A stretch of 64,000 bases of DNA from Chionoecetes opilio. Lineage: Eukaryota > Arthropoda > Malacostraca > Decapoda > Majidae. The stretch covers positions 1-64,000 of the forward strand of contig JACEEZ010019805.1 of the NCBI GenBank assembly GCA_016584305.1, written 5' to 3'. The translations under genes and the position numbers were made by a program. This document shows, one piece after another, positions 14,221-58,904 of the stretch; the first letter of the stretch is position 1; every line of letters begins with the position of its first letter. Below the pieces are notes generated by a model that saw only the letters and a list, made by a program, of their open reading frames with translations, did not search any database and was not told where the DNA came from.

Positions 14221-14457
14221 CATAATATCAATATTAGAATATTAGAATAGTAACACATAATCTTGTAAAGTATATATAAGTTCAATTAGCAGTGGAATAG
14301 AGAAATACAAAATTAGAATAGTAACCCATGTATGTATGTAGGTTCAGCTAGGAATAATCTACACATTCCCTATAGTCAAAGATAGTTCTCAGTAGTCCAG
14401 CTGAAGCTCCTGACTGTAAAACCTATAAGAACTCAACAATAATGTAAAAAAAAGAAG

Positions 14458-16142
<1,685 letters not shown>

Positions 16143-20843: not shown

Positions 20844-20992
20844 TTAATGTTAGGTTAGGTTTCATTACAACCTATAAGGTTAGGTTAGGTTTCATTAAAA
20901 CCTTTAAGGTTAGGTTAGGTTTCATTAAAACCTTTAAGGTTAGGTTAAGTTTCATTAAAACCTATAAGGTTAGGTTAGGTTTCATTATTACA
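20844..20992. repeat. 30-bp tandem repeat containing TTAGG
   Basis: About five units of AAGGTTAGGTTAGGTTTCAT plus TAAAACCT, flanked by poly-A on the left and by poly-T and poly-G runs on the right (to about 21016). The embedded GGTTAGGTTAGG is the arthropod telomere word. Confidence 0.85.
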
Positions 20993-21242: not shown

Positions 21243-21653
21243 GTTAGGTTAGGTATACTTTGTGGTTAAGGTTAGGTTAGGTATACTTTGTGGTTAAGGT
21301 TAGGTATACTTTGTGGTTAAGGTTAGGTTAGGTTAGGTATACTTTGTGGTTAAGGTTAGGTTAGGTTAGGTTAGGTATACTTTGTGGTTAAGGTTAGGTT
21401 AGGTTAGGTATACCTTGTGGTTAAGGTTAGGTATACTTTGTGGTTAAGGTTAGGTTAGGTATACTTTGTGGTTAAGGTTAGGTTAGGTATACTTTGTGGT
21501 TAAGGTTAGGTTAGGTTAGGTATACTTTGTGGTTAAGGTTAGGTTAGGTTAGGTATACTTTGTGGTTAAGGTTAGGTTAGGTTAGGTATACTTTGTGGTT
21601 AAGGTTAGGTTAGGTTAGGTATACTTTGTGGTTAATGTTAGGTTAGGTTAGAT
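21243..21653. repeat. Interstitial TTAGG array with TATACTTTGTGGTTAAGG spacer
   Basis: Some 15 units, each one to four copies of TTAGG followed by TATACTTTGTGGTTAAGG. The number of TTAGG copies varies from unit to unit while the spacer is nearly constant. TTAGG is the ancestral arthropod telomere repeat; an internal array with a fixed spacer is a satellite, not a chromosome end. Confidence 0.9.
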
Positions 21654-45647: not shown

Positions 45648-48518
45648 CTATTTCCTCTCTTCTTCCAAAAGTTGAACAAGACATCTCTGGTGTATTCTAT
45701 TTCTTGTGGGTTTTCGAATTTGAATAATATGTTTCCCATTATTTCATTTATATTTTCATTATATGGCTGCTGTAATTTTTGTAATTTACTTCTATCCCTA
45801 TTGTAGCCCGGGCATTATAGTAGAAAGTGTTCTAGGTCTTCATTCTGTACCCCACACACTGGGCACTTTGTGTCGCCATCTGTGTGTCTCCTTCTGTCCT
45901 GCAGTTCTAGGCTGTTTGTTCTGAGTGTAAAGAGTAATATTGACTCTGGCCTATTATCATACATTTTTTCCATTCCTCCCATTTGTTTCTTATATTCTCT
46001 ATATATAACCAGGCTTGATTTTCTCTCTATTTCTTCCTTCCACTGCTTTGTATCCCATGCCTCTATCTTCTTATTAAATTTCTCTCTTTTCATTCTTCCC
46101 AATTCCTCAAGACTACTTCCAATTTCCATCATATATGACTTGCAATTTTTCATCCATTTATCTTTTTGATCATCTTTTGTCTCCTCCCTTACTCTTCTTA
46201 TCAATTCATTTCTTTCTTCCTTCATCACTCCATTGACATATTTGGACACCTTGCCTTCATGATTCTTGTCTTGACCAGAGATGCTCCTATTTCCCCTCTC
46301 ATGCCTGCCAGTGTTGCATAGCCTCTTGCTCCCAGAATTGTCCTGTGCACTGTGTTTTCTATTCTGTGTAATTTTTCCATCTCCTCTTTGTTGTAATTTA
46401 TTACTCCTGCTCCATGTAATATAGATGATAATGCTACTGACTTCCAATAGGTTTTTCCAACCAGTAGTCTGTTGCAGCTCTTCAATATTATGCTATACGT
46501 CATGTTTGCTAATTTTCTTGCCTTGTTAATGCAGTTTTTCTTATGGTTCTTAAAACAGTTCTTGTTGTTGTTTAGTTCCACTCCCAGGTACTTTATTTGG
46601 TCCACTACCTGCACGCCTTCTATTTCTGTTATTTCTTCTTTAACGTTACACAGTATGAAGTTACTTTTCTCCTTATTTAGCTCCAGCTTATTCTTCACTA
46701 ATTTGCCTCAATGCTGTCAGGTTTCTTCTGGCTTCTTCCAACGACTCTGATAGTTGTAGTCCATCATCAGCAAAAAATAGGGTATTTAGTCTTATTCTTT
46801 CATCTTTGTATCCTAATCCATTTTCTTCCACTTTCTTTATGATCATGTAGGTTAGCATTTTGAAAAGTGTGGTTGACCCTGTACAGCCTTGTCTAATGCC
46901 ACTGCTTATTTCTATCTCTATTTCTTTATCCTTCCTTATCTTGATTTTTGTTTTATCTGTTTCATATATATTTTTCACACATTCTATTATCCTGCTGTCA
47001 ATTTTATATTTCATTAATGTAGCGATTAACTTCTCTCGTTTCACTGAATCATAGGCCTTTCTGAAGTCAATCGCGGCCACAAATAACTGTGTTTTGTGTT
47101 TGTATGCGTTGTTGATGCAGTGTTGTAGTAAATATAGGTTGTCCTCCAGTCTCCTTCCCTTTGTAAATCCTGCTTGCTCTTCTTTGTCCTCTCCATTAAG
47201 CTTTATGTGTTCTTCCAGCTTTTCTTTCAAAATTTTCATACACAGCTTATACATTTGGCTTGTCAGAGCTATGGGTCTTAAATCGTTCACTTTTGGTTTA
47301 CTCTTCTTTGGGATCAATACTGTATTTGATTCTTTCCAACTTTCTGGTATTTTCCCACTATTTAGTATTTTATTAAAACATTTCTTTAAGTTGTCTCTAC
47401 AAATCTTGCTGTTACTCAATGCTTTTACTAGCTCTGGTTTGATCTTGTCAGGTCCTGCTGCTTTACCATTTTGTTATGCTTTTTATATGCTTAACTATAT
47501 CCTCTTCACATATTTCCGTTAATTTCATTTTTTTACAATTGCTTTTTACTGTGTATGCCATATCCATGTGTTCTCTCAGTATGTTCTGTACGTCATCTTC
47601 CTCTTCCTCCATTAGTCTTTCATACCTTTTCCCTTTTTTTTCATTTCAGGGCCATCTGTATTTTGTTTTCATTTAGGTTTAATACTCTCCCAAATATCAA
47701 TTTCTTTTGCCTTTTTTGTTACCTCTTTATCTTCTGTTTGGTTTTTTTCCTTTTCCCCTTTTAAATTTTATTAGTTCTCCCCGAGTTTAAAACCCTGGAT
47801 TTCTGTTTTCTCTAAAATTTTACGGTTGTCCTCCTTTTTGCCGGGTTTTAAAAATTCTCAGTTTTTTTCAATTTTGGTACTTTTTTTTTTTACCCTGGTT
47901 TTCTCTCCCATAATATCTTCCCCTTTCTTTGCCCAAATAGGTTCCCCTTGTCTGTTTAGTACCTTCCTATTCTTTATTTCCCTCTGGAAATTTTTTTTGT
48001 AATCCATGGTGGTCCTTTTTTTCCTTTTCTAGTCTCTCCTTTCTTGTTAAAAAAATCCCTTTTAAATTTTTTGGGCAGCAATTCCCTTTTATAATTTCTT
48101 CTAATTTCCCTATTTATGTCCTGTTTTGTAAAAATTATTTTCTTTTCTTCCCTTAAAAAATATCAATAAGGGAAATTTTTCGTCTTTTTTTATAGTATTC
48201 CCCTTTCTCTCCCTCCAGTTTCCTCTCTCCCCTTCTCCGAAAACAGTTGGACTTGGAACATGTTTTGATCCCATATAAACAGGGTTTTTCTTTTTCCCAC
48301 TATTTCCATAACAACATATTTCTCATATAGCTTTTCATTTATCATTGCGTAATCTATTACGCTACTTTTTCCTCCACTTTCCCAGGTATATGTTCCTTTA
48401 CACGCTATATCATTGTTAAGGAGTATTAGTCCAAAATCTTCCATCCAGTTGATCACCATATTTCCTCCTTCATCTAACTTCTGTGATCCCAGGAATCCCA
48501 CATGACTATTAAAGTCTC
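45648..48518 (-). pseudogene. LINE ORF2, 3' part: endonuclease end, RT and zinc finger
   Basis: Minus strand. It opens with DFNSHVGFLGSQKLDEGGNM and TYTWESGGKSSVIDYAM, the C-terminal half of an APE-type endonuclease (about 48510-48290). A poor, homopolymer-rich stretch follows (48.2-47.45 kb). The RT has NDLRPIALTSQMYKL (motif 2-type), motif A in VAAIDFRKAYDSVKREKLIA, motif B in SSGIRQGCTGSTTLFKMLTY, the catalytic box LFFADDGLQLSES and KYLGVELN. The C-terminus carries CPVCGVQNEDLEHFLL with a following Cys (a CCHC-like finger) and ends at a stop complementary to 45648-45650. Several frame changes (about 46690 and 46280). It joins the 59.5-61.9 kb segments across two insertions. A Jockey/CR1-like group is plausible; I would not name the clade. 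Confidence 0.88.
48514..48518. other. Target-site duplication GTCTC, left copy
   Basis: Five bases directly left of the BEL/Pao LTR. The matching GTCTC is at 59516-59520. It lies in the LINE codons for the GDFN motif. Confidence 0.9.
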
Positions 48519-51529: not shown

Positions 51530-52640
51530 CCTGTGACTACCTCCAATACAATTGAAACAATATACCCCTGGATTTGACTGCCCCAAGCCTCGCTGCCCTT
51601 GTTTAATGCCTTGAATCCCGTCACATTCGTATATTTGTGTCCATCAGCATTATGCAGCCAGCATTTTTATCCATAGATTTGGTTCTGTGCCGATTTTCCT
51701 CACAGCCTCAGTCAAATTTACTATTAGTTTCTCAAATTCGCGGTTCTTGTTATCTTGGTTATTTGGATATTCTTAATAGTGTCCTCAATTTAGATCACTT
51801 CATTTCTCTCCGAAACACCCGTTAAGCAATTGACCCTTCTTAGTGACAGTATACACCTAAAATTAGAGTCCATGTATTCTAGAGCTTGTTTCTCTCTCAA
51901 TGGGAATTCCAACAATGCTGGGAACCCGGCTGTCAGTTCGAGATAGTTCACCAATTTCATGACCCATTCTCTTTTCTGTAATGCCCGGCAAGATTCTCTC
52001 TACCATGCTCACGACATGAGCAGTATTCATTTCCGATTGCAGGTTTACTCTTTTTAAGTCTAACAACACTGCTACACCTTCCCCGCCATTTTGATGAACC
52101 CTTTATTGTCTCCTTCACTCAATGACTTCAGTGCTTTCAATTCACTAATCACCACATCAACGATCTTCCGGGATTACCATATTGATCATCAAGACGCTTA
52201 AACATTGAGTCGTAGTCGTTATCGCACCCCGCTATGCACTTTAGAGCGTCGTCACTGATACACTGTTTTAATGCAAAGGGGTCCTTGCCATAATGCTTTT
52301 CTATGATGCGGATAAAATCGTCTTTAAAGCCTGGATAATCTTTATATTTCCAGTAAATTTTGGGGGTTCTAATGCCTTACTTTGACTTTCATTTTTAAAT
52401 CTCACTTTTCCTTGCATTTATCCAGTCTGTAAATCTTGCTCAAAACAATCCTTCACGTCAAAATTTTAACACCAGAGATATACTGTTTTCCACCCTCTAT
52501 TACAAATTTCATCCCGTCAGCAAATTCCACATATCCATTATGAATAGTCCCCTAACTCCCCTTAAAGGCGTCACTCACCTCACCGTAAGTTTCCTTCCCC
52601 ATTTCAATAGGATCCTGCCTATCGACACAATTCGTAAACA
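51530..52640 (-). pseudogene. BEL/Pao gag, main part (DUF1759-like)
   Basis: Minus strand, continuing from the N-terminal piece at 58822-58904. MFTNCVDRQDP opens the block. The characteristic part is GKDPFALKQCISDDALKCIA then GCDNDYDSMFKRLDDQYGNP (about 52300-52165), the DUF1759-type pattern of Pao gag. MLLDLKRVNLQSEMNTAHVV follows (about 52069-52010). A zinc-knuckle-like C.NC....H segment lies near 51560-51530. Multiple stops and frame changes are present. Confidence 0.75.
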
Positions 52641-53263
52641 TAGTCTAGGGAGGGTCACTTAGGGCGATTCGCTTCACATTAGGTGAAGAAGTATTTGAGG
52701 GTCTTATCCCAAGCATTTTTTGCCGCTGAATCCGAAAATCGTAGTTGGGTCACTCGTTAGCGGTAAGTTTTTGCGCAATTTGCAATTTGGCAATTTGGCA
52801 ATAAAATTGGCAATTACAAATTGTAGAATGAGAACCAGACGTCCCTAGAGACCTCGTTTTGGACTCAAATTGAAGCTTATTAGAGTGCATAAAATGTTAT
52901 TTAGATTTGTGGTTGTTCTGTTCGCATTACTGAACTATAATGGAAATTAGAGATAAGTGGAAAAAAAATGGAAAAAAAATATAAAAGGAATAATTTTGGC
53001 CTTAATTTCACATCAAAAGTCATGAAATCCAAAATGAAAATGAAAAAAATGAAATATCTGTTTCTCATAGGGGCCACTACCGTCTGATTAATAGAAAATG
53101 GTAACTTTTCCCCTGACTGTCCCCTCATGGTCGTATTTTATGACATACGGTAATGAAATTTCGCAAATAAATGAAAAATTTCATTGGCTATAATTTTAGA
53201 AATTAGCTATAACCCGTAAATAAATAAATTCAATTATTATATCGCAAATTTTCCTTTCCCCAG

Positions 53264-56200
53264 GTCTCGCAATAAAATCGTGTGTCATTTGCGGTGCAAC
53301 TAACGGAGATGGGGTCCTTCGACCTCGGACGCCCAAGGAGGATGTTCGGAGTATGCTGGCCAAGTGGGCTTCGAAAAGGCGAATTCGTAGAGGCCCACAG
53401 GGGGTTTCCTCTAGAAGGGACGTTTGGTCGTGTCACCGACAGTGCATTGCTAAATCCCAGCCCCAAAATTCGCGAGGCAGTACGGAGATGAGCAACAGGA
53501 CCTTGCGGCGGAGGCCGCCCACCCGGACCTTCAAGGTAAAGAAGAATTTTTTTTTTTTTTTTTTGCAAAAAAATTTCTTTCGACATGAAAATATTGCTTG
53601 ATTATGGTCTAGTGATTCAAGGATAGGGAGCGCTAAGTGCGTGGCACTGATTTCCGGATAAAACGTCGCAGATGATGATAAAATCTAACTCGCAGTGCGA
53701 GGAGTGGAAAGCGTGGGCCGCTTGGCCGCGAGGGTTTTTTAAGCTAATAAACATTCTTTGAATACTTTTAAATTTGATGTTTCGAGAAATATCTTATTTG
53801 CTATAATTATTTTCATGCATAGGATTCCTGAAAGTATTTTTCCCTTTGGTAGTTTTCCATTACATTCCCGACTAAATAATAAAAGCTTTTATCCATCTCT
53901 ACTTCTAGGCCTGCCACCCCCCCCGCCGCCTCGAGTCCCCCGCCGCGCCAGCGCTCCTTTTTCCCCGGGAAGGGAAATGCTTTTTCTGCGGTGATGGAGA
54001 CAAGCCAAATGAAGTCCTGCAACGGGTGAGCACGACCTGGAGTGCCAATCGAATCATTGAGGCGGTCCACAAGGGAAAACGAATTCTGAGGGGAAAAATC
54101 CAGCTTCCTCCCGACCTCGACGTCCTGGCTGCCCGACGTGATGTACCATAAGGGCTGCTGGAGCATTCATGTCGTCAACAAGTTGCGGACAGTGGCCTCC
54201 AATTCAACAAGAGCCAGAAGATCGCTCCGTGATCGATTCGTGGAAGAGGTTAGCGAGAAGCTGGAGAGTGGAGTGGTTCTCTCGATGGGAGAAATAGACA
54301 GCATCAAGGAGCAGCATGGTGTTGGCCGCTCACGCTGGCGGATAAAGGAACTCCTCCCCAAACCATGGTCCATGGCGTGGAGTTCACCCAAGCCCAAGAA
54401 CCCTCGCAAACCCCGAACTGGTTCATCTGGCGGAGGCAAGGAAAGAGGCCCTGACAAACCCATCGGACAATCGAGGACTTCAAGCTTGCTACACTCCTGA
54501 AAGCTGCCAAATCCTGCGTGAAGAAACCCTCAAAAAAACCGAACTAGAATTCGAAGGAGACATGGCCAACTTTAACCTTCCTCCCCTCGTCAAGAGTTTC
54601 GCGACCTGGGTCGTCGGTGGAGCTGGAAGAAACAACCCGCGAACGGAAAAGGGAGCCTCGATCGTCGGACAAGTCCTCATGACAAACATCTTGAGTGCAA
54701 AGCAGGCTGCGACGAGCACCCAAGCTTCCCGAACCCGAGAGGACCCCTCTCCAGGTGGCGACGGCGCTGGCCATTCATCAGGAGACGCGGAGCAAAGCAA
54801 TATTAAGATTTTTCCACGGTGGGGGCTGGCTATCTCATACTCCTCTTCTCCGCCTCGAGGCATCGCTTGCCCGAACGGTGCTCAGCGCTGGAGGGGCGAG
54901 ATGGAGTTTTTCATCCCGCGCCGCCTCGAGAAGGCCTTCTCGTTCACTTGCCATCGACAACATCGATTTCCAAGAAGACACAGTAGACGGGAAGGGCACC
55001 TTCCACGGCACGGTTAGCGTTGCCTTACAGCCCGGCCCATCTTCTCCGTCAGAGCTGGACCCCCTAAAGTTTCATTCTGACGCTGCTGAACCCCTCCTCC
55101 TTCCATTTACGAGGTAAAGCCCCTGTCCCATAAACCGCTCGCTTAAGCCGAAGCTTCCCCCGCTCTCTTTCGAGAAACCTCGCCTCGAGAGCGCTGAGAA
55201 CTCCAAGGACAAGGACACTCTCGTCCTACTCTCCTTCGGCACGTTTGCCCTGAAAAGACCTCCCGCGGAGCATGCCCAGCGGGTCAGCCTCAACCCGACT
55301 CGAGGATTTTTCCGCCTGTCCCACCGACGACAATCTGCACCTTGCCCATTCTCGCTCTCCAGGCCAGAGTACTCGTCAATATTCACCATGATGACAGAAA
55401 TGGAGAAAATTCAACAAGCGCTGAACGGCGATGGGGCCCCGGTGCTTGTTGCTGCCGACATGGCGCTCTTCTCAAAGCTCCTGGAGATCAAGTTGAACTT
55501 GAAGAAGGAAAACGGATCGCCGCCTTGGCGACCTACACGTCGTAAATAGCCATGCTGCGGTGCATCGGGGGTTTTCCTGGGGGGAGCGCTTCGACGAGGT
55601 GCTCCACGAGTCGGGGGTGTAGGGAAACCCGCCACAGTCCGGCAGATTTTTGGCCGGAAACCACGTCAACCCGGAATTGAGGCACACATAATCCTCACAA
55701 GTGCACTCCTAGCTCTCAAGTTCTCTTCCGGGACAATGGAGAGCGCCGAAGAATTCGCCGCCCCAGGAGTTGGGCAGAGGATGGAAGACTGGATTCCTTC
55801 AAGAAAGCCCTCGAGATCCTTGCCCCAAGCTGCAGATCCTGAGGTCAGCGGGTTTCAGAACACAGTCCCTTGAGCAAGTTCTCCATGACGTACGTCCAAG
55901 ATGGTCCTCCTGCTTTTGAACTACACAAGGGCTGTGGCGGACAGGAGACTGGGCGCTGCACCTGAAGACGTTGGAGGAGTTCGGACCGTTCTTCTTTGCC
56001 ATGAATTGAAGCTCCTACGCCCGGTTCGTCCCGGTTTAACGTGGCCATGATGCAGGACCTCCGCCTCAAGAATCCAAGAGCGTGGACGTACTTGGAGAAA
56101 CACTGGGTCGTCCGTAGTCGTTGGTACCTTCACGTCCCTTGGCTGCGACCATGCTTGGAACAGGTGAATCGGACTCGAAAGGTGACGGTGGGCTTGTAGG

Positions 56201-58050
56201 GATCACGAAAAATCCCTCGACGAGGACCAAGTTCTTCTTGATCCAAGACGAAAATCTTGGCAATCAAGGCCAAATCATTCGGAAGTTCTGCTACGGCATC
56301 AAAGCACCACAAGGACAGCCCGCGGTCACGAAGAAGCACACGAGATGACCAAAGAGGTTGCTGGTCTTCTTCGCCGCATAACCCCTTCACTCGCGAGAAA
56401 ACCCAACTCACCACCGTCCTTTCCCGCAAGGTTGTTCCAGATAAGATGGTGGGCGCACTGACAAGAATCGAGGAGACTGGCAAGGAAGCTCTCTTGAAGT
56501 ACGAAAGGGGAAGGATCAGGGCTGCGCAGCAAAGTCCATGGGAGGTCCTGCATCGTCAGCCTACCAATACATTCAAAACGCTGGGCAAGAAAGCCAAAGT
56601 TTCAAACGGAGGGAAGCAGGTGATTGTCACGGGATCCTCAGACTTCACTCGCGCCCCGCTGCTCGCCCTCCAACTCGACAGCAGTCTGGACCCTTTGCAC
56701 CATCATCTCCAACTATGAGCTCTCCCTGTTCCCTCTTGCCCTCTTTGACGACCAAGCCACCCGCGGGTCACGACAAAAAGTGCCCTTCTCAGGGTTCTGG
56801 AGAAGATGAACGCGGCGGTCTCCACGGCCTCGCAAACCCCTTCATCCTCCCCGCGTGCTTTTTTCCTCGACGGGATGGCTATCCTTCAGCAGCACCCCGT
56901 TTCCGGCTCAGCAAACTTTAAGACCTGGTTGGATCCCTCCTGCAGAGAGTTGCCCAACTGGGTGTTGGCTACGGGGAGCTGCACCTTGTCTTTGACAGGT
57001 ACGACATCGGCGCGTCCCTCAAAGACAAGACGAGGGAACAGCGAGCCCGAGGTGGAGGATACGATATCGACATCCCCCAAACAGCGACGAGGGTCAAAGC
57101 TGGAATGACCATGGCTAACATCTTGTCCACCAAAAGCAACAAGACTGCTAGACCTCTCTCATTGCCTCCCCAAAACCAGCACCATTCATGGGGATTACGC
57201 GTCGTCTGCGCGTGGCGTGACAAAGCCGTGGGAACTTCTGGACCGGACGGAGCCAAGTTCGCTTCAGAACAAGAGGAAGCGACACTAAGATGATATATCA
57301 TCTCTCCATGCTCGACAAAGATGTGGAGGCAACCGTAGTTTCTCCGGACACTGACGTCCTCGTCCTCCTCCTCCGACACTTCCCCCAAAATACATCCCAA
57401 CACGTGCCTCCAGCTTGGCAAGACACTTTCAACGTTCAGCTCATCCACGATGGGAAATGGGCTCTCACGCGGATGTGATCACGTCCTTCCATGCTCTGAC
57501 TGGTTGCGACACCACTTGCGCCCCCCTTCAGGAAAGGCAAGTTTCAAGCTTGGCCTGTGTTCCAGGCGGCCGACCAGGCAACCCTCGACGCTTTGGGTAC
57601 ACTCCGAAGCCCTGGTCCCCCTGACGCAAGAGAGCCTGGACGTGCTGTGCCGATTCGTGAGCAGAATTTACGGATTACCTGCCCCTGCCGCAGGCGAGGG
57701 TGGACGGCACTTCAGAAGAAAAGGTTGGAGCAGCACTGGCCCCTTTCCCACAGTCAACGCCACCACCCAGCAAAATTATGCGAGCCCAGCTACAGGCCGT
57801 CGTCTGGGACGGGGCTGTGAAGAAGGAGTTGGTGACCCTCGACCCGACCAAGTACGGCTACGGACCAAACCTGGCGCCTATCCCTTCCAAACCCTGCCTC
57901 CCGCCCCCAAATATCATGGATGGGATGCAGTGCGGATGCAAGACGAACTGCTCGACCAATCGCTGCCGCTGTCAACGCCTGCAGACTCCTTGTTCGGAGC
58001 TTTGCGATTGCTCCCCGAGATGTGCATCAACGACGAGGAAGATGGCATGA
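53264..58050 (+). pseudogene. Large transposon protein with Zn fingers and PIN/FEN1-like motifs
   Basis: At least two exons on +: 53264-53535 (acceptor TTTCCCCAG, donor AAG|GTAAAG) and from 53909 (acceptor CTACTTCTAG). In order: CVIC (53281); CFFCGDGD (53978) with YHKGCW (54145), a zinc-finger pair; PPLVKSFATWVVGG (54580); TPLQVATALAIHQETRSKAI (54750); DNIDFQEDTVDGKGTFHGT (54958-55013); GDWALHLKTLEEFGPFFFAM (55948); GITKNPSTRTKFF (56198); AFFLDGMAILQQ (56852); FDRYDIGASLKDKTREQR (57000); an EADTKMIYHL segment with SPDTDVLVLLL (57275-57372); FHALTGCDTT (57487); and a Cys-rich tail C.CK..CS..RC.C (57927-58040). The DG/FD.Y..S.K..TR..R, E-ADT, DTDV and GCD order parallels XPG/FEN1 nucleases; that is inference. 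At least eight frameshifts as read. Confidence 0.8.
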
Positions 58051-58210
58051 GGACGTCGATGGCGTAGACGACTAGATATTCGATTTTTTTCAACTTGTGA
58101 AACGCTCGCTATCGCAAGTAAGGGATTTTTGGTTTTTCTAATTGTTTTTTTTCCAAAAATACGCGGAGGAGACTCGGTTTCGTTTTTTGAAATTTTGTGT
58201 TCTGGATTAA

Positions 58211-58819
58211 TACTCGGGTCACTTCGGGCGGAAAAAAGGCTTTCGCTTCACCTTAGGTGAAGGAAGTATTTGAGGGTCCTTATCCTAAGCATTTTTCAGT
58301 TGAAATACCCTGTTCTACGCAATAATTTGTACCCACCCTTGCAAAAAATTCGTTAATTAAATGTGTCCTACGAACAATTGTTTGTTTTTTTTACTTTTTT
58401 TACTAATTAAAATTTAGTTTTTAATTATTAAGAACTCAGGCTTTAAGGCCAAAATTATTCCTTTTTTTTTTTTCCCAATTTTTTTTCCACTTATCTCTAA
58501 TTTCCATTATAGATCAGTAATCCGAACAGATACAACCACGGAGTACTCAATAACAATTTTATGCACTCTTATAAGCTTCAATTTGAGTCCAAAACGAGGT
58601 CTCTACGACGTCCCGGGTTTTCATTCTACAATTTGTAATTACCATTTTATTGCCAATTGCCAAATTTCAAATTGCGCGAAAACTTACCGCTAACGAGTGA
58701 CCCAACTACGATTTTTTTGGATTCAGCGGCCCCAAAATGCTTAGGATAAGACCCTCAAATACTTTTCCCTTCACCTAAGGTGAAGCGAAAGCCTTTTTCC
58801 GCCCTAAGTTGACCCGACT
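58211..58819. repeat. 609-bp unit with both ends of the long-TIR family
   Basis: A direct-orientation copy of the terminus (TACTCGGGTCACTTCGGGCG, continuing through GTGAAGGAAGTATTTGAGGG to about 58297) sits just after the gene and faces the true right terminus at 58819. The pair brackets 609 bases like a small internally deleted element. Either such a MITE inserted at the right end, or the transposon has a duplicated subterminal region. Confidence 0.7.
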
Positions 58820-58821
58820 AT

Positions 58822-58904
58822 CATCTTCCGTGTAACTTTGCCTTTTTGCAATCCCACGTTTTTTTGCGAAGGGCCGCCAGCTGCTCATCCTTAGTCCCCG
58901 TCAT
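58822..58904 (-). pseudogene. BEL/Pao gag N-terminus
   Basis: The minus-strand ATG is complementary to 58902-58904, 24 bases inside the 5' LTR. It reads MTGTKDEQLAALRKK, then after a one-base shift RGIAKGKVTRKM, the L..LR.KRG..KG..TR pattern of BEL/Pao gag starts. The reading is cut by the long-TIR transposon and resumes with FTNCVD at about 52638. Confidence 0.75.

Follow-up and report, generated by a model that had tools for sequence, protein, structure and literature searches.

A DNA transposon with long terminal inverted repeats in Chionoecetes opilio, likely of the AcademX group, encoding a protein with predicted DDE transposase and FEN1-like nuclease regions

Ends and copies of the element

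The window analyzed here (positions 1-64,000 of contig JACEEZ010019805.1 from Chionoecetes opilio) contains a DNA transposon located at approximately 52646 to 58820, boundaries which correct the 52642..58819 given in an initial annotation of this DNA. Inverted termini of approximately 360-380 bp, which that annotation had estimated at about 370 bases, flank a gene on both sides: the left terminal inverted repeat (TIR) occupies 52646..53005 on the forward strand, and the right TIR 58442..58820 on the reverse strand. Other copies start with TAGTAGGGTCACTTAGGGCG and end in ...GTGACCCGACTA, and the ends of the element across copies are TAGTAGGGTCAC...GTGACCCGACTA. The target site duplication (TSD) of the window copy is incomplete, with only tc on the left (52644..52645) versus TCA on the right (58821..58823), whereas copy L011 carries TCA on both sides. 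L011 lies on another contig and has both flanks in common with the window copy; it is either the other allele or one insertion that was assembled twice.

We searched the genome to which the window belongs (1.94 Gb in 20,818 contigs), and the spread of relatives was assessed inside this genome; in invertebrate genomes at large the family may be widespread, as the initial annotation states. The left TIR gave 41 matches, namely the window itself, 39 places with 96-97% identity and a short one with 80% (best 40 of 1645 first-look candidates), and 20 copies (L011-L030) were fetched. Two of these are incomplete, as L015 runs into N and L028 is without a matched right end. A perfect 3-bp TSD of varied sequence is present in 17 of the 18 copies with both ends, while in L027 the duplication matches over 2 bp only. 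The DNA transposon family proposed in the initial annotation, including its short duplication, is thus borne out by TIRs that bracket the gene, by 3-bp TSDs and by many copies. Two fetched copies are full-length (L011 and L023, 6131 and 6094 bp), and the 18 others are internally deleted in their readable part. Substitution divergence from L011 amounts to 1.97-8.25% in the 19 other copies, of which 14 fall within 1.97-2.58%; this is consistent with fairly recent activity.

Coding region and predicted enzymatic domains

The main coding region extends over 53909..58075 on the forward strand, as do all gene features given below, and ends in a TAG stop codon at 58073-58075. It corresponds to the single large coding region annotated initially, with the motifs in the same order, but it is split over several frames in the window copy and likewise in L011 and L023. 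Unbroken stretches exist in two loci of the same family: L031, which is internally deleted, has a frame of 781 residues that takes in the DDE glutamate region, the nuclease and the Cys-rich C-terminus, and L035 has 597 unbroken residues including the first two D motifs. As these two overlap, no repair is needed to read the protein beyond its second CxxC.

Upstream of the nuclease, conserved D, D and E motifs occur in this order across distant families. The first candidate DDE aspartate (DNID, 54956..54967) is conserved in 7/7 covering rows of the alignment, the second (AADMALF, 55457..55459) in 9/10, and the candidate glutamate (ALEQ, 56158..56160) in 8/10, the exceptions being rows without that region. 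A structure model of low confidence weakly predicts a DDE fold; DDE transposases or RAG1 fill the first seven rows of its match list and account for 25 of the 50 rows overall. In the DDE region Pfam reported the family DUF6589 below threshold in four of 14 rows (best E 0.003), at residues 465-660 of L058 and 54-152 of L031, a hint that this family may consist of transposases. The initial annotation had recognized no DDE transposase, which was not confirmed, conserved motifs being present at approximately 54956, 55457 and 56158. It had also proposed a family that uses, or at least carries, a PIN-like nuclease, and had listed a DDE-type domain in the N-terminal half among the findings that would speak against this; since a DDE-type region, with a fold modeled at low confidence, lies in the same protein, the nuclease as the transposase is not supported.

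The FEN1/XPG-like nuclease domain is located at 56869..57510, with LDG at 56869, FD at 56994, EEAD at 57273-57283, PDTD at 57347-57355 and TGCD at 57508; in the window copy the motifs read LDGMA, FDRYD..SLKDKTREQR, EEADT, PDTD and ALTGCD in this order. The FEN-type acidic positions are conserved in 15/16 to 17/17 covering rows of an alignment in which about six related groups can be told apart by eye. A Lys/Arg pair follows the second aspartate in the alignment rows, which we take to be the equivalent of K93 and R100 of FEN1. The structure model predicts a FEN1/EXO1 (PIN-like) fold. In Foldseek the RNA exonucleases Xrn1/Xrn2 come first, followed by flap endonucleases and EXO1, and VIA places EXO1 and FEN1 above Xrn, with 12-17% identity in the EXO1 and FEN1 rows. 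Sequence-only searches of this region against PDB chains and Pfam gave nothing convincing (no credible Pfam family among 17 rows scanned, with one chance-level match), so that the nuclease assignment is carried by the fold comparison. Given both the conserved acidic positions and the predicted fold, the motif order is not due to chance, and the PIN/FEN1-like domain of the initial annotation is supported.

Protein searches with the nuclease region, the DDE region and the nuclease of the distant locus L033 gave at least 147 (best 140 of 4935 candidates), at least 126 (best 121 of 4436) and at least 108 (best 106 of 10599) matches, respectively, and therefore several families coexist in the genome. 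Distant relatives (L033, L034, L036, L037 and L042-L060) include several with long open frames, and L033, which is nearly full-length, has one in-frame TGA. Four loci chosen by their DDE region were followed further downstream: the nuclease is present in three of them (L033, L034 and L037), and in L036 a reverse-transcriptase-like frame comes after the DDE region and the 4.3 kb fetched showed no nuclease frame. Other sequences of the nuclease alignment do not count for this linkage, as they were chosen by their nuclease. L033 is bracketed by TIRs of approximately 295 bp (88% identity) and L037 by a perfect 25-bp repeat, with no clear TSD in either of these two copies. No relatives were found in a viral contig collection.

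The ends of the protein are rich in cysteine. A first coding stretch, read by frame translation at 53275..53535, contains a Cys/His zinc-finger-like motif (CVIC...CHRQC) and is followed by a putative intron at 53536..53908 (GTAAAG...TTCTAG), predicted from the sequence alone. A second such motif, CFFCG...YHKGCW, lies at 53978..54161; both were recognized by eye. The N-terminal zinc fingers of the initial annotation are supported at the level of Cys/His motifs in the sequence. At the C-terminus, a Cys-rich CXC-like motif (CGCKTNCSTNRCRC...CSELCDC, 57931..58023) has a subthreshold match to Pfam TCR (E 0.79).

Right-end unit and surroundings

The terminal 88 bp or so recur as an inner inverted copy at 58210..58295 on the forward strand, which faces the right end and makes a unit of approximately 0.6 kb (58210-58820) with its own pair of ends. 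The sequence TACTCGGGTCACTTCGGGCG is found at this inner terminus in several copies. An inverted match is present in 16 of the 20 fetched copies; the inner terminus is gone by deletion in L018 and L029, L015 is unreadable there, and L016 has no inverted match although its alignment spans the place. In a search for free-standing 0.6-kb units, identity of the inner segment was 95-97% in the 39 scored places besides that of the window (best 40 of 1519 first-look candidates), and several of these adjoin the coding region of an element, as judged by comparing coordinates rather than by a systematic count.

Frames on the reverse strand adjoining the left end (51863-52376) resemble by eye a retroelement gag/protease region, and the element may therefore be nested in an older retrotransposon. 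Elsewhere in the window, open frames lie on the reverse strand at 46688-47473 (261 residues, with the look, by eye, of a long interspersed nuclear element reverse transcriptase) and at 14389-15078 (FSDNCGGQNKN...MPGHSCLPGDSAFG); the latter, judged by eye, may encode a further transposase-like protein and continues into a tail of simple repeats. Inside the contig, at 20845-20987 and 21243-21651, are tandem arrays in which GGTTAGGTTAGG is abundant and which resemble the arthropod telomere repeat.

Transposition and relation to known systems

AcademX, a lineage of the Academ superfamily of DNA transposons, has a nuclease of XPG type. Superfamily and lineage were reportedly described by Kapitonov and Jurka in 2010 and by Kojima in 2020. 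No paper in the literature searched joined Academ, XPG and transposase as whole words, and no such text stood among the matches listed. According to an excerpt of PMC10045372, AcademX elements have TSDs of 3 or 4 bp and AcademH elements TSDs of 9 or 10 bp, lengths which are tied to the nuclease and helicase encoded. In excerpts of PMC10294476, Academ is counted as a DDE/D superfamily whose elements average 5565 bp in bivalves, and excerpts of PMC4455052 cite it as a superfamily dating from 2010. The element has a 3-bp TSD, a predicted nuclease, conserved D-D-E residues and TIRs bracketing the gene. The initial annotation knew of no established class for such an element, but the nuclease-encoding Academ lineage with 3-4-bp duplications is AcademX (PMC10045372, excerpt); the element likely belongs to this described group and is probably not of a new kind.

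We consider it probable that this is a long-TIR DNA transposon, likely of a new AcademX family, whose single protein is predicted to unite a DDE transposase with a FEN1/EXO1-like nuclease and has Cys-rich ends that presumably bind DNA. The zinc-finger and CXC modules would bind the TIRs, and, because of the features of the family, we favor a cut-and-paste reaction in which the DDE center would cut the ends and join them, staggered by 3 bp, to the target. Cleavage of 5' ends or flaps on the non-transferred strand or at target joints may be the task of the FEN1-like domain. In a stronger version, which we regard as rather doubtful, the polypeptide would be a two-nuclease transposase in which a DDE center would carry out strand transfer and an obligatory FEN1/EXO1-like center would trim the 5' ends and set the 3-bp stagger, and the machinery could use the 0.6-kb right-end unit as a third, inner end.

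The nuclease is the best-supported fold in the protein while the DDE model is weak, which would fit a PIN nuclease-driven element with the FEN1-like domain as its transposase and no working DDE center. We find this very improbable, given the ordered D, D and E across distant families and the DDE transposases and RAG1 heading the structural matches; moreover, FEN-type enzymes hydrolyze DNA, and strand transfer is not known for them. A PIN domain as the only enzyme was rejected on the D-D-E motifs, and the FEN1-like nuclease is unlikely to act alone. A superfamily separate from Academ, in which DDE and FEN1-like domains were combined independently, would fit a likeness to Academ that was drawn by description and a Pfam yield limited to subthreshold DUF6589 and no credible nuclease family. 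In its domains, TSD length and overall size the element nevertheless agrees with the AcademX and Academ descriptions in the excerpts, and a separate superfamily seems improbable.

It is also conceivable, albeit not what we expect, that the nuclease is an accessory outside the transposition reaction, which would remove RNA or intermediates of host repair, or favor an amplification linked to replication. The Foldseek ranking of Xrn1/Xrn2, the lack of a nuclease frame in the stretch of L036 fetched, and the various accessory nucleases of other DDE elements (Kolobok; PMC9587614, excerpt) are in line with this, but VIA ranks EXO1 and FEN1 higher, the nuclease follows the DDE region in three of four loci chosen by the latter, and L031 joins the glutamate region, nuclease and C-terminus in one frame. 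The differing TSD lengths of nuclease- and helicase-encoding Academ lineages (PMC10045372, excerpt) further hint that the nuclease acts in the reaction. With the AcademX interpretation, an apparently new transposon class becomes a family of a described one, and the models lend structural support to the predicted fusion of a FEN1/EXO1-like nuclease with a DDE-type transposase. As the genome contains numerous related loci from several families, a number of them with long open frames, it would be well suited to testing what the accessory nuclease does and whether it determines TSD length.

Compared with other systems, the nuclease resembles EXO1, FEN1 and XPG-type 5' nucleases in its predicted fold, acidic residues and Lys/Arg pair, but it is known by prediction, has low identity to them and is embedded in a transposase. 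The Hermes (hAT) transposase is 6-8% identical over the aligned part and is not known to have a FEN1-like domain. The inner inverted terminus at the right end is a feature not known from AcademX. The KolobokP, E and D lineages are likewise DDD/E transposons with added nucleases, but these have His-Me finger, lambda-exonuclease-like and DnaQ-like folds, and that of KolobokP is a separate protein (PMC9587614, excerpt). AcademH belongs to the same superfamily and also has an accessory enzyme, but it combines a helicase with 9-10-bp TSDs (PMC10045372, excerpt); membership in it was rejected on the 3-bp TSDs and because the pieces scanned with Pfam gave no match to a helicase family. The closest likeness in description is to AcademX, which is nuclease-encoding with 3-4-bp TSDs against 3 bp here, within a DDE/D superfamily of similar length (PMC10045372 and PMC10294476, excerpts).
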